Under the pieces are notes generated by a model. That model was not told the DNA's origin and made no database searches. It worked only from the letters and a program-made list of their open reading frames with translations. A program made the position numbers and the translations under genes. 35,681 nucleotides of DNA from Lactiplantibacillus garii (lineage in GTDB: Bacteria > Bacillota > Bacilli > Lactobacillales > Lactobacillaceae), in NCBI RefSeq assembly GCF_003885105.1, contig NZ_QWZQ01000034.1:1-35681 (forward strand). Direction: 5' to 3'. How positions within the stretch are numbered: the first letter of the stretch is position 1; every line of letters begins with the position of its first letter. Shown here piece by piece: positions 1,076 through 19,834 of the stretch.

Positions 1076-1155
1076 ATTGAACTTGGTCAGGATGAACGGC
1101 GGACTTATTTGAAAGTTAACCGGCCTAGGCTATTTTCAGCCGTTCTACCAGCGCC

Positions 1156-2943
1156 TTAAAGTTCCAAAATCGCGTTAAAGACGCTTTGGGGCAGCTTGAT
1201 TGCGTTTTTGGCCGCTTGCCTTTTATTGATACTTTGGCGTCGTAACAGTGCCGCTTTTTTAGAAATACTGTGGGCGTCGCCATTCACGGCGGCGTTTTTT
1301 CTTAACGGTGGAACGTCGACGCGCGCAACCGCCTTCCCCTCAACCACTGCTTGGACGGGCGTCGGGTAAAGCTGGCGGGGAACGGTCCGTTTGAGCTGGT
1401 GGACCAGGGCCTGCGTCATCGCACTGACATCGCTGCGGTGCACGATGAACGCCAACGCGTCGACCGCGGTATAGTTCATGTCAACCTCGACTTTGACTAA
1501 GTCACCGACCTCGTAGTCTAAAAATTCCGTGCTCAAACTCGCAAACCCGTGCGAAACGGATTTTAATTCGGAGAAAAAGTGGTACGCAATTTCCGATAAC
1601 GGGATCTTAATGATAATGACAACTAGGTCGTTATCATTTTTCATATCTAACAACTCGCCCTTATGGCCATCAACTAACTTAAGCACCGCGCTTAAACTAT
1701 CACTGGGCATCGTAATTTCCGCTTTCACGAAGGGTTCCTGCACTTCTTCGATCAAACTAAAGGCCGGAAACTGCACCGGGTTTTGGATCAGCAGCCGCTG
1801 ACCATTCTTTAATAAAACCTGGTAAGTCACGGTCGGTGCGGTCGTTAAAACGTCCAGGCCAAATTCCGCTTTTAACCGCTCCCGAATGATTTGTAAATGA
1901 AAGGCGCCTAAAAAGCCGCACCGAAAGCCCATCCCTAACGCCTCGGAGCGCTCCTCGGTATACGAAAACGACGTATCGTTGAGACTTAATTTTAAGATGG
2001 CACTTTTTAACGTCTCGTAATCGTTATCTTTCGGGAAGAGTCCCGCAAAGACTACCGGCTGCGCGGGCGAATAGCCGGTCACCGCGGCTGCGGTCGGCTG
2101 ACTTTTTAACGTGAGGGTCTCCCCCACGCGAACCGCCCGCGGGTCCTTTAAGCCCGTGACCACGTAACCAACTTCACCGGTCCGTAACGCTTTTTCGGGC
2201 TGCATGTTGGGGTCAAACGTTCCGAGTGCTTTTAACTTGAACGCCTCACCAGTCTGCATCAGCCGCAAGTCGTCATTTTGGTGGACGTGGCCGTCTATCA
2301 AACGCACGTACGCAATGATTCCCTGATAAGCATCGTACAGCGAATCAAAAACCAGGGCCTTCAGTGGTTGATCCGGGTGACCCTGAGGCGCGGGAATCCG
2401 CTCATGGATGGCTTCCAACACTTCGTGGACGCCTAACCCGGTCTTAGCCGAGATCAGTAGCGTCCGCGCCTTGGTAAACGTCGCGTCCAAAGTTTCAAGC
2501 TGTTCCTGGGTTCGTTGAACCTCCGTCGAACCGATATCGACCTTATTAATGACCGGAATAATGCTTAAATGATGACGTTTGGCGATCCGGTAATTCGCGA
2601 TCGTTTGGGCCTGAACCCCCTGGGTCGCATCGACTAATAGAATCGCGCCCTCGGTGGCGGCCAGGCTTTTGGAGACTTCGTACGTAAAGTCCACGTGGCC
2701 CGGCGTATCGATTAAATTATATTCATATTCCTGACCATCATCCGCGTGGTAATAATTACGCACCGTGCGGGCCTTTACGGTGACCCCGTGGGCTTTTTCA
2801 ACGTTCATGTCATCCAGTAGTTGCGCGTGCTGTTCACGCTGACTGACGGTTTGGGTGGCTTCCATGATCCGATCCGCTAACGTCGACTTACCGTGGTCAA
2901 TGTGGGCGATGATCGCAAAATTTCGAATTCGTGTTTGATTAAT
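1156..2943 (-). CDS. EF4/LepA-family GTPase paralog with apparent AUU/AUC start
   Basis: A translational GTPase of the EF4 (LepA) family, which acts on ribosomes and promotes back-translocation or rescue. Read from ATT at 2943 it has 595 residues, close to the usual ~600, and begins MNQTRIRNFAIIAHIDHGKS. It shows the P-loop (residues 13-21, AHIDHGKST), switch I with HGVTVK, G3 DTPGH and G4 NKVD. No ATG, GTG or TTG exists in frame between an upstream TGA and the ATG at 2865, and starting at 2865 would delete the P-loop. An AAGGAG motif lies 10 nt before ATT 2943 and 7 nt before ATC 2946. The ATT shares its last base with the TAA of the upstream tetR gene (ATTAA), implying coupled translation. 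The C-terminal domain is more divergent than in housekeeping LepA, so this looks like a second, regulated paralog. AUC at 2946 is an alternative start. Confidence 0.85.
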   Translation of the reverse strand: MNQTRIRNFAIIAHIDHGKSTLADRIMEATQTVSQREQHAQLLDDMNVEKAHGVTVKARTVRNYYHADDGQEYEYNLIDTPGHVDFTYEVSKSLAATEGAILLVDATQGVQAQTIANYRIAKRHHLSIIPVINKVDIGSTEVQRTQEQLETLDATFTKARTLLISAKTGLGVHEVLEAIHERIPAPQGHPDQPLKALVFDSLYDAYQGIIAYVRLIDGHVHQNDDLRLMQTGEAFKLKALGTFDPNMQPEKALRTGEVGYVVTGLKDPRAVRVGETLTLKSQPTAAAVTGYSPAQPVVFAGLFPKDNDYETLKSAILKLSLNDTSFSYTEERSEALGMGFRCGFLGAFHLQIIRERLKAEFGLDVLTTAPTVTYQVLLKNGQRLLIQNPVQFPAFSLIEEVQEPFVKAEITMPSDSLSAVLKLVDGHKGELLDMKNDNDLVVIIIKIPLSEIAYHFFSELKSVSHGFASLSTEFLDYEVGDLVKVEVDMNYTAVDALAFIVHRSDVSAMTQALVHQLKRTVPRQLYPTPVQAVVEGKAVARVDVPPLRKNAAVNGDAHSISKKAALLRRQSINKRQAAKNAIKLPQSVFNAILEL

Positions 2944-3601
2944 GATGCTTCAGCTCCTTTAAATAGGCCTTCAAGTAAAATTGCATTTGGGTTTGGGCTT
3001 CGGGGACCAAGTCAATTTCAAAATCGGGGTAATCGACCTTGAGCTCCGTGTGGTTAAACCGCGTGAGGGACGCCATGTTCATCAAACCGCTAATAATGCC
3101 ACTTTGGATGATGAACAGGTGGCTAAATTGGCTCTGACTCAATAGGCCGTTCGTTTTTTCAACCAGTTCCTGGCCGACCCGTTTACTGATGGCGTATAAC
3201 TCGTTGCGCTTGCTAACGGTCTCTTCCATGTTCGCCTTCCCCTCTAAAATCGGTCCCCGAATCGTATTCAAGCGGACTAGTACGGCGTGCTCTTTGATCA
3301 GGTTGGCCGTTTGCGCAACCATCCAATCAACGTAGGCGGCTGCCGACATTGCTGGATAGTCCGCTAGTTGGACGAGCAGGTCGGCAAAGAACCGCTGGTA
3401 GTTTTCCAGCAGGACACTCATAAAGAGGTCCTCCTTAGTGGCGAAGTAGTGAAAAGGCGTGCCCTTAGAAGTGCCGACCGTCTCGGCGATTTGTTTCATC
3501 GTGATTTCTGAGTAGCTGTGTCTTTTAAACAGCTGCACGGCCGCGTCCATGATTGACTGCCGTTTCGCATCCTTTTGATCAGTTGTATATTGATTCGCCA
3601 T
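2939..3601 (-). CDS. TetR/AcrR family transcriptional regulator
   Basis: A 220-residue dimeric repressor. The N-terminal helix-turn-helix is typical (ITMKQIAETVGTSKGTPFHY, then FATKEDLF); the C-terminal ligand-binding half is family-variable and gives no ligand. I choose the ATG at 3601 (MANQYTTD), preceded by a weak GTGAG, over the upstream ATG at 3661, because 3661 lies at the promoter's -10 region. Its stop overlaps the start of the LepA paralog by one base, so the two form one transcription and translation unit. The promoter contains a TGACNNNNNGTCA-like inverted repeat and a 14-bp perfect palindrome, so autoregulation is likely. A TetR gene governing a translation factor is unusual. Confidence 0.88.
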   Translation of the reverse strand: MANQYTTDQKDAKRQSIMDAAVQLFKRHSYSEITMKQIAETVGTSKGTPFHYFATKEDLFMSVLLENYQRFFADLLVQLADYPAMSAAAYVDWMVAQTANLIKEHAVLVRLNTIRGPILEGKANMEETVSKRNELYAISKRVGQELVEKTNGLLSQSQFSHLFIIQSGIISGLMNMASLTRFNHTELKVDYPDFEIDLVPEAQTQMQFYLKAYLKELKHH

Positions 3602-3617
3602 AACGTTCACGCTCACT

Positions 3618-3678
3618 TTCAAAATTGACCCGTGGTTAACATGCTGATCAGCATACTTCAAAATTGACCGTCAGTCAA
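3618..3678 (-). promoter_or_regulatory. tetR-lepA promoter and putative TetR operators
   Basis: On the minus strand TTGACT (-35, 3673-3678) and TATGCT (-10, 3650-3655) are separated by exactly 17 bp. TTGACTGACGGTCAA (3664-3678) is an inverted repeat over the -35. ATGCTGATCAGCAT (3641-3654) is a perfect 14-bp palindrome over the -10. The 13-mer GGTCAATTTTGAA occurs twice, at 3618-3630 and 3657-3669, 39 bp apart. Operators placed over both promoter elements fit autorepression by the TetR protein. Confidence 0.65.
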
Positions 3679-3719
3679 CTTTGAAGCGGACTGGTTTTAA
3701 CCGAGATGCAAAAAACAGA

Positions 3720-3955: not shown

Positions 3956-3979
3956 ATAGCTTGCAAGGTGGTGTTATCC

Positions 3980-5239
3980 ATGGGTCAAACTATGGCACAA
4001 TTACCGTACCATTACGGAGTTAAAGTTCGCATTTTCCCATCCAGTCGACAAAAGCAGCTTATCAAAAAGAATAGTGACGCCAGCCGCTTTATTTATAACG
4101 CCATGAACGGGATGAACCGCGAGCTGTACGAATTACGGCAAGTTAAATTACTAATTTCGTTAGTGTTACAACGGATCAAGACCCTCGAAGATCGGTTGAA
4201 ACGACCGTCAACTGGCATTTCAAATCTTCACGGCTGGCTGAATGACCCCGACTTGGATAGTCTGATGAAAGCCAATGCGATTAAGAACTACCGCGCGGCA
4301 TGGAAACTGTTCCGACAAGTGCACCATGCCGGAACACCGGTCTTTCACAAGAAACGAATTGCACAAAAATATCAAACGTCAGCGCAATACGCCGCCCAAA
4401 TCAGCCAACCAAGCCTATACAACGGGTCAGTGCGGTTACTCGATAAGCACTTTGTACGGTTGCCGAAACTTGGTAAGTTACGTTTCAAGGGCTGGCCTAG
4501 TCGCCTACTGACCAGTGACACCGCTATTAGAATTGGCACGACTACCGTTAGCATGGACGCTACGGGCCGTTATTACCTTTCCATGCAACTCGGCGCTGAG
4601 CAGCCGTTTGTTAAGCAGTTGCCAGCAACCAAATCAGCACTGGGCATTGACCTTAATACTGAGAACTTCTTGACGGACTCACAGGGAAACGTTGTTGCCA
4701 ATCCCCGCTATTACCGGTCGATTAAAGGCCGGTTAGCTAAGGCACAACGGAAGCTTTCCCGGCGGGCACGGCGCGCCAAACGGGAACATCGGTCTTTACG
4801 GTCGGCGGCTAACTATCAGCGCCAACGAGTGTTAGTAGCGAACCTCCAACGCCGTGTTGCTAATCAACGTAAAAACTTTCTGCACGGCCTTTCCACAACC
4901 TTGATCAAAAACCACGAACTAGTTGTGGCCGAAGAACTGCGCAGTCGAAATCTACTGAAAAATCACGCCCTCGCAATGAGCATTGCGGATGTGGGCTGGC
5001 GGACGTTCCTAAGTATGTTGAGCTATAAGGCTGATCTATACGGGCGCCGGTTCGTCGCAGTCAATCCGCGTAACACCACGCAAACTTGCCATGCCTGCGG
5101 GTTTATCATGGGGACGGCTAACACGGCTAAATTAACGTTACGTGACCGTGAATGGACGTGCCCGCACTGTGGTACGCACCATGTCCGTGACCATAACGCC
5201 GCACAAAATATTCTGGCAAAAGGCTTAGCAAGGGCCTAA
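3980..5239 (+). CDS. tnpB: RNA-guided endonuclease TnpB (IS200/IS605 family)
   Basis: A 419-residue TnpB. This family cuts DNA under guidance of an omega RNA made from the transposon right end, favouring retention of the element. The RuvC motifs look intact: GIDLN (first Asp), VVAEEL (Glu) and RDHNAAQNI (last Asp). The zinc ribbon is intact as CHACG and CPHCG near the C-terminus. AAGGTGG 8 nt upstream favours ATG 3980; GTG 3968 and ATG 3992 are alternatives. No tnpA (Y1 transposase) lies in the window, so this is a tnpB-only, IS1341-type element needing TnpA from elsewhere. The reading frame is undamaged, so it may still be active. Confidence 0.92.
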   Translation: MGQTMAQLPYHYGVKVRIFPSSRQKQLIKKNSDASRFIYNAMNGMNRELYELRQVKLLISLVLQRIKTLEDRLKRPSTGISNLHGWLNDPDLDSLMKANAIKNYRAAWKLFRQVHHAGTPVFHKKRIAQKYQTSAQYAAQISQPSLYNGSVRLLDKHFVRLPKLGKLRFKGWPSRLLTSDTAIRIGTTTVSMDATGRYYLSMQLGAEQPFVKQLPATKSALGIDLNTENFLTDSQGNVVANPRYYRSIKGRLAKAQRKLSRRARRAKREHRSLRSAANYQRQRVLVANLQRRVANQRKNFLHGLSTTLIKNHELVVAEELRSRNLLKNHALAMSIADVGWRTFLSMLSYKADLYGRRFVAVNPRNTTQTCHACGFIMGTANTAKLTLRDREWTCPHCGTHHVRDHNAAQNILAKGLARA

Positions 5240-18400: not shown

Positions 18401-18931
18401 ATTTTTAAAATTCAACGAAGTAAATTAATCTTGGGCCTTACCGGAATATTGACGGTATTACTCGCTGGTTGCACAGCGACGACCAGCCAGCACCCTACCA
18501 ATCCCCAAAGCGTGCGGGCAACTTCAAAAGTGCAACCGACACCGGCCACGCACCGTCAAGCCATTAAAATTACGGTCAACGGGGTTCGTTTGACTGCACA
18601 TTTAAATAATTCAAGTGCCGCGCGGGCCTTTGCGCAGGAACTGCCGGTCGACTTAACATTCCGAAATTTCATGGACATGCCGGAAAAAATTGCAGATTTG
18701 CACCACACACTACCCACCACCGGTATGCCGAGTGGTCACGCCGGCACCGCGGGGAGCATCGGTTACTGGTCCCCCGATAAACGAATCGTTTTCTATTGGG
18801 GTACCGAGGATTATTATGAAGGTATCCACATCATCGGTACTTTTGATCACCATGATTACAAAAAAGTCGTCCGCAAAATGGCGAAAAATACAACGGTAAA
18901 AATTGAGAAGGTCAATACAAATGAAAATTAA
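18401..18931 (+). CDS. Cyclophilin-like-fold lipoprotein with apparent AUU start
   Basis: A 176-residue lipoprotein. Read from ATT 18401 it starts MFKIQRSKLILG, giving a basic n-region, then a hydrophobic stretch and the lipobox LLAGC. After a low-complexity Thr/Pro/Ser linker comes a cyclophilin-like domain (IKITVNGVRLTAHL, then AFAQELPVDLTF and IGYWSPDKRIVFYWG), a family of unknown activity often linked with flavodoxins. A perfect GGAGG is 7 nt before the ATT. The only standard start candidate in frame, TTG 18431, has no RBS and would remove all basic residues of the signal. A TGA lies at 18386-18388, so no upstream start is available. It overlaps the next gene by 11 nt. Confidence 0.78.
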   Translation: MFKIQRSKLILGLTGILTVLLAGCTATTSQHPTNPQSVRATSKVQPTPATHRQAIKITVNGVRLTAHLNNSSAARAFAQELPVDLTFRNFMDMPEKIADLHHTLPTTGMPSGHAGTAGSIGYWSPDKRIVFYWGTEDYYEGIHIIGTFDHHDYKKVVRKMAKNTTVKIEKVNTNEN

Positions 18932-19834
18932 ACTAAGACACTGGCTAATCATCAGCACAGTGCTATCCCTCGTCATGGTGGTTAGTGCGTGCGCTCATAA
19001 AAGTACCAAGTCATCCACGGGGCCGTCCTATCAAAAAAGTAATAAAGTAGTAACGGACAAATCACTCAATGATCAAGTCTTATCCGTCCGCCATAACAAA
19101 GAAAAGATCGTTGGCCACCTCTATACGGCTAAAACTAACGTCAAGCACCGTCCCATCGCCATCATTTCGCACGGGCTTGGTGGTAACTATCAAGAACTAG
19201 AAGCTTATGCCCGCCGGTTAGCTAAACGGGGCTACCTAGCGTACGCCTTCGATTTTCCCGGTGGTAGCACCAACGGTCAGAGTACCGGCTTAAAACAAAC
19301 CCAGATGTCCATTTACACCGAAGAACAGTCCTTACTCGCCGTAATTACGGCTTTAAGAAGTCGAAAAGACGTTGATAAAAACAACGTCCTCTTAGTGGGT
19401 GGTAGTCAGGGGGCGTCGTATCCGCCCTGACCGCCTCACAACACCCGGCCTACATTCAAGGATTAGCTTTAATGTACCCGGCATTTTCCATCACCCACGA
19501 CGCACAGGCCCGGTACCATTCGGTTAGTCAAATTCCCCAAGAATCCGATATTTTCGGCTTTTCAGTGGGTAAAGCCTACTACCAAAAGTTGCTGAATATT
19601 GATATTACGAAGATTGCGACCAAGTATCGCGGCCCGGTACTGATCGTCCACGGAACGAGTGACGACGTTGTACCAATCAAATACGTCGAACGAGCCGCCC
19701 ACAACTTCCCGAACGCAACTTTTAAAAAGATCACGGGTGCCGGACACGGCTTTGAGGGGAGTGACCAACAACGAGCGTTACACTTACTTGATAATTTCGT
19801 TACTAAAACCCAAAGACACTCAGAAAGAGGTTAA
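18921..19834 (+). pseudogene. Lipoprotein alpha/beta hydrolase, frameshifted in a G5 run
   Basis: An alpha/beta hydrolase with an N-terminal lipoprotein signal (KIKLRHWL, lipobox VVSAC). The first part reads to 19430 and the second continues in another frame to 19834. Restoring one G in the five-G run at 19409-19413 gives GGSQGGVVSALTASQHP, joining the nucleophile elbow (Ser in GGSQG) to the rest, with Asp in GTSDDVVP and His in GAGHGF. The whole gene would be about 304 residues. All catalytic residues survive, so the lesion is recent, a sequencing error, or bypassed by slippage: a ribosome on GGG could slip back one base within the G run. ATG 18921 overlaps the upstream lipoprotein stop. Confidence 0.82.

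Follow-up and report, generated by a model that had tools for sequence, protein, structure and literature searches.

An apparent AUU start of a second lepA gene overlaps the tetR stop codon by one base in Lactiplantibacillus garii

The window analysed here is a stretch of 35,681 nucleotides (nt) from Lactiplantibacillus garii (contig NZ_QWZQ01000034.1; genome of 2.97 Mb in 158 contigs), a species of the genus that also contains Lactiplantibacillus plantarum. Its minus strand carries a gene for a TetR-family regulator followed by a frame encoding a translation GTPase of the EF4/LepA type. The encoded protein matches the curated lepA equivalog profile TIGR01393 of NCBI (701.9 bits against a cut-off of 533.9, residues 6-595) and contains the complete LepA/EF4 domain set of Pfam, namely the PF00009 GTPase, PF03144 D2, PF00679 EFG_C and PF06421 LepA C-terminal domains. 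A canonical lepA is present in the same genome and is 45% identical to it. Judged by homology, the frame is an additional lepA beside the canonical copy, as an initial sequence-only reading of this DNA had proposed, and is named lepA2 here. The gene lacks any standard start codon from which a complete protein could be made, and it appears to start at an AUU codon embedded in the end of tetR.

The lepA2 frame of IRNFAIIAHIDHGKST opens on the minus strand after TGA (2952-2950) with AGC (2949), ATC (2946), ATT (2943), AAT (2940) and CAA, and continues to its stop at 1158-1156. The first ATG, GTG or TTG in this frame is the ATG at 2865, six codons past the last T of the P-loop HIDHGKST. Re-reading the letters bears out what had been noted at first, both that the frame is open after a TGA without a standard start before 2865 and that AAGGAG, which ends at 2954, stands 10 nt ahead of the ATT at 2943 and 7 nt ahead of the ATC at 2946. 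The start codon opens 2 nt ahead of the tetR stop, and its third base is also the first base of that stop; an ATG at this place is incompatible with a stop beginning at 2941. The ATTAA overlap had been likened to the common TAATG coupling; the overlap with the tetR stop at base 2941 holds, but its geometry differs from the TAATG type.

Relatives were drawn from 397 genomes of the family (94 matches at E<=1e-180, of which 93 were read and G038 was left out), with further loci from the own genus, from a genome_contigs scan (which contributed 8 of its 15 loci) and from two additional genera; L and G numbers are our handles for loci and genomes. The 113 rows that contain AHIDHGKST or a similar anchor collapse to 87 distinct initiation regions when rows with the same start codon and the same 24 nt upstream of it are counted once. 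The count leaves out 19 canonical lepA loci (L002, L020-L037), seven matches from the own genome (L003-L009) and seven distant LepA loci (L046-L052). It includes matches of one genus group, mostly with codon -14 starts and with no tetR found, that count only tentatively as LepA2. Most of L108-L131, one genus group, are LepA matches of about 55-58% identity that start at codon -14 and have no tetR match; canonical lepA also has an ATG at this codon, among others.

The 87 regions start with ATG (77), TTG (6), GTG (3) or, in the window alone, ATT. Counted back from the A of AHIDHGKST, all 86 other regions have a standard start within codons -9 to -14, and only the window lacks one. Codon -12, the usual start among the relatives, is the position of the window's ATT. 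A quick tree built from 51 full-length proteins places the window in one clade with three others, L038 (Companilactobacillus mindensis), L056 and L165, with a support of 98 in the SH-like approximate likelihood ratio test (SH-aLRT), and all three of these clade members start with ATG. Two relatives, L165 and L164 (whose coding sequence is identical to that of L038), align with the window free of gaps (AAGGAATATAAGAAAAATGAATAAAGAACAA for L164 and AAGGAATTAAAGAAAAATGAATGAAGAACAA for L165 against AAGGAGCTGAAGCATCATTAATCAAACACGA). Since ATT is confined to the window and the three clade members have ATG, AUU is most simply explained as a replacement of AUG in this lineage alone. An alignment with orthologs, which the sequence-only reading had named together with resequencing as able to overturn the AUU start, thus yields ATG at the homologous codon of relatives and no conservation of AUU.

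The end of tetR changed at the same place. In L164 and L165 tetR runs through the lepA2 start and ends in AAT GAA TAA and AAT GAA TGA, respectively, whereas the window has CAT TAA TCA at these positions, with TCA replacing the relatives' stop. One G-to-T change converts ATG into ATT in lepA2 and GAA into TAA in tetR, and the new TAA sits one codon ahead of the stop of the relatives. Another base at 2941 would let tetR run on to a stop 44 nt past the lepA2 start, and among rows with a walkable tetR frame this offset reaches at most 20 nt (the offsets of L074, L079, L083 and L161 are unusable as the frame walk ended early, and the tetR match of L162 ends 371 nt upstream). Because an AUG at 2943 would lengthen TetR by 14 codons, base 2941 seems to be held by tetR. 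Table 1 lists the features of the locus.

Table 1. Features of the tetR-lepA2 locus, in coordinates of the window
Feature	Position	Strand	Remarks
lepA2, EF4/LepA paralog, 595 codons from the inferred start ATT 2943, stop TAA 1158-1156	1156..2943	-	TIGR01393 and Pfam GTP_EFTU, GTP_EFTU_D2, EFG_C, LepA_C
tetR-family regulator, 220 aa from ATG 3601	2939..3601	-	PF00440
TAA, tetR stop; base 2941 is both its first base and the last of ATT	2939..2941	-	Next stop in the tetR frame is TGA, 14 codons on
ATT, inferred lepA2 start, codon -12 before AHIDHGKST	2941..2943	-	Aligned with ATG/TTG/GTG of relatives; gap-free against L164 and L165
ATC, less likely near-cognate alternative at codon -13	2944..2946	-	
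AAAGGAG, Shine-Dalgarno; AAAGGAGCTGA can pair with the 16S 3' end of the same genome, GGATCACCTCCTTTCT	2954..2960	-	Predicted duplex -12.1 kcal/mol
TTGACTGACGGTCAA, palindromic site that is likely a TetR operator and overlaps the -35-like TTGACT (3678)	3664..3678	-	TGACN5GTCA conserved upstream of tetR
TTAACCACGGGTCAA, second operator-like site, one mismatch between arms	3625..3639	-	Read by eye
TATGCT, -10-like hexamer, 17 nt from TTGACT	3650..3655	-	Consensus match only

The surroundings of the ATT may favour initiation there. The predicted Shine-Dalgarno (SD) duplex of lepA2 is matched or exceeded by 9 of the 86 other regions, and the median of the ATG group is -8.8 kcal/mol; these energies take in interrupted pairing near the start and allow a rough comparison only. 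Folding of the 101 nt that surround the start is weaker than in 198 of 200 shuffles (z +2.18).

Of the 113 rows, repeats included, 62 have a tetR match upstream and in the same direction, and in 61 of these the match ends no more than 73 nt from the start of lepA2. Some loci have short upstream DNA (74 bases in L062), and a missing match is no proof of absence there. Upstream of tetR, 46 of 54 distinct regions have an exact TGACN5GTCA palindrome and the remaining eight have it with one mismatch; mononucleotide shuffles gave 0.0 and 1.5 per set, respectively. Given this conserved palindrome ahead of tetR, with one site over the promoter-like -35 hexamer, TetR probably represses its own tetR-lepA2 operon. 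The motif precedes tetR of tetR-lepA2 pairs across Lactobacillaceae and is a candidate operator of a TetR controlling an extra LepA. The window's lepA2 is closest to that of Companilactobacillus mindensis (80% identity; tetR 77%), and identities within the own genus reach at most 73% (tetR 63-65% in those rows). The tetR-lepA2 pair was possibly acquired by horizontal transfer.

We suggest, at a probability of roughly two in three, that lepA2 has a real AUU start of low efficiency in a tetR-lepA2 operon, kept in place by the overlap with the tetR stop. The gene would be the second of an operon that TetR represses through the promoter palindromes. Its start codon would have changed from AUG to AUU at 2943, and the same base change would have given tetR its TAA one codon early. 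With the older tetR stop now read as TCA, base 2941 would be locked by tetR. Ribosomes would still initiate at the AUU at a low rate, aided by the long SD match, by the weak structure of the start region and by ribosomes terminating on tetR alongside. The likely product is a full-length LepA2 of low abundance.

Several observations weigh against this interpretation. Conservation would be expected of a control device, and AUU is absent from all 86 other distinct regions. At 11 nt, the distance from GGA to ATT exceeds the commonest value in the family, 8 nt. The gene is patchy, with no match at 1e-180 in 10 of the 21 genomes from this genus, and a recent loss would initially look the same. The species is represented here by a single assembly, in 158 contigs. 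The idea that the AUU evolved as a control sensing initiation factor 3 (IF3) finds no support, given its absence from the 86 other regions and its presence in one genome only; as far as sampled, AUU is apparently peculiar to this species. Regulation of lepA2 by initiation fidelity or IF3, as raised in the sequence-only reading, is possible.

The strongest rival to an AUU start, though an unlikely one, is a dying lepA2 that has lost its start while tetR kept its function and its stop, the frame still being intact because the loss is recent. The lack of a standard start and the patchy distribution across the genus agree with decay, as does a tetR stop at its usual length next to a lost lepA2 AUG. 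As nearly half of the genomes of the genus show no lepA2 at 1e-180, the gene may be dispensable (G011 has a partial additional lepA match). Against five relatives, the ratio of nonsynonymous to synonymous differences (pN/pS) is 0.145-0.239, but pS is saturated at 0.77-0.92; this provides no dN/dS value for the window, leaves the change undatable and is compatible with recent loss. The intact frame speaks against decay. Its 595 codons contain neither a stop nor a frameshift, and the protein departs from the relatives at 2 of 202 near-invariant columns, defined by agreement of all or all but one of 50 other distinct full-length proteins, compared with 0-16 departures in the other rows (L019 carries a run of N, and its stops are uninformative on decay). 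The SD is retained and strong. Furthermore, the ATT, if it came first, would not be brand-new, as the older tetR stop has since become TCA.

An error at base 2941 in sequencing or assembly, with a true codon ATG, is very unlikely. In its favour, all three clade members have ATG and the window comes from a single draft assembly. A true ATG would however entail the TetR extension described above, with a stop beyond the range seen in walkable rows. The relatives' stop is also gone, consistent with a new TAA, and two linked differences at adjacent codons (the new TAA and the old stop turned TCA) make a single base error hard to invoke. Looking for base 2941 in a second strain, a megablast search of positions 1100-3700 against plasmids returned only a 112-base match to a Collinsella lepA, and an exact pattern over the start with base 2941 left open had no matches in viral_contigs.

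Initiation at the AUC at 2946 instead of, or alongside, the AUU is about as improbable. The product would begin MINQTR, and AUC is near-cognate as well. The distance from GGA to this codon is 8 nt, the commonest value in the family (24 of 87 regions; 15 of the 87 lack a GGA core). Starts at codon -13 are found in L084 and L087, and several rows have ATG at both -13 and -12. The usual start is nevertheless codon -12, and in the gap-free alignment the ATG of L164 and L165 stands against the window's ATT, with the same 11-nt spacing from GGA in both relatives. Of the two starts first proposed, AUU or AUC, the ATT at 2943 therefore keeps its place at the relatives' usual position, and the ATC at 2946 is the less likely one. 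A TetR-LepA2 fusion by +1 frameshifting or a short form from the ATG at 2865 has a negligible chance despite the overlapping frames and the existence of that ATG, as a shift would be confined to AAG CAT CAT between the TGA at 2952 and the tetR TAA, where no slippery run was seen, and the short product would lack the P-loop.

A near-cognate start of another gene provides a comparison within the genus. The infC gene was read in 19 of 21 genomes (the own and 18 congeners; L143 and L154 were left out because of a mismatch in the anchor motif). All 19 have ATT ACC ATA GCT with GGAG 10 nt before the ATA, the same distance as between GGAG and ATT in lepA2. A TGA stands directly ahead of the ATT in 18 of the 19, where the sole standard codons lie 4-5 codons before IRAREVRLI. 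The exception is L146, in which the frame is open further upstream and contains standard codons. No ATG, GTG or TTG precedes IRAREVRLI in L155 (G006), and a near-cognate start thus seems forced there. By analogy with the AUA start of Staphylococcus aureus infC, AUA is the apparent start of infC in this genus; the ATA as start position is our assumption, taken partly from the N-termini in other bacteria. Across the infC loci L135-L155, the apparent AUA start lies behind GGAGGTGA.

Near-cognate starts have been described in other bacteria. In Borrelia burgdorferi and Bacillus licheniformis, AUU was the only way to restore a full-length lepA, inferred from sequence and untried experimentally there (PMC1780047). 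The likeness to lepA2 lies in an AUU start inferred from sequence. The present case adds an extra lepA2 behind tetR with a start sharing a base of the tetR stop. The AUU starts of Escherichia coli infC and pcnB are experimentally shown, and that of infC is tied to translational control (PMC1780047, PMC4245954). AUU is common to these genes and to lepA2, whose putative AUU start is seen in one genome only. In S. aureus, infC starts at AUA, cvfC1 at AUU and ccpN at AUA, with extended SD motifs and an efficiency of about 10% of AUG for AUU/AUA starts, up to 30% in one case (PMC13009471). As in lepA2, these are Gram-positive near-cognate starts with an extended SD, and the infC of the genus is similar; conservation has been reported for the starts of cvfC1 and ccpN, whereas the AUU of lepA2 is not conserved. 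Streptomyces sigR has a GTC start reportedly repressed by IF3 (PMC5472188) and shares with lepA2 a rare start in a single gene, the IF3 effect being claimed for sigR only. Replacements by GUG or UUG tend to be compensated by stronger SDs (PMC5622118). Excess IF3 inhibits non-canonical starts, as cited in PMC2268962, and also re-initiation, less so with an SD. A literature search found no report of this lepA2 or of such a start/stop conflict, with most subscription papers outside its reach; LepA2 occurs solely in primer names in the accessible text of PMC4494060, and that of PMC4342817 contains neither lepA2 nor Lactobacill-.

The locus suggests a concrete route to a forced weak start, in which the stop of an overlapping upstream gene occupies the base required for AUG. 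A more far-reaching version is speculative and rather doubtful. The shared base would lock a translation GTPase into AUU, the amount of LepA2 would track the level of IF3 and the passage of ribosomes over tetR, and LepA2, which may itself act in initiation or in the assembly of 30S subunits, would be part of a feedback loop with start-codon selection. With an AUU-started lepA already inferred and near-cognate starts known in infC, pcnB, cvfC1 and ccpN, the case is a tidy example and not a shock. Usual gene finders skip starts outside AUG, GUG and UUG, and an annotation will therefore probably cut lepA2 short at 2865 or miss it.

Other features of the window lie outside the operon. A TnpB/OrfB-type transposase gene (3968-5239, plus strand) adjoins tetR, and a hairpin of 11 pairs followed by a T-run (3887-3862, minus strand) lies between the two. 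Further on, at 18903-19834 on the plus strand, a short alpha/beta-hydrolase-like fragment just below the Pfam cut-off (profile positions 3-87) is followed by a small open reading frame, and may represent a broken gene.
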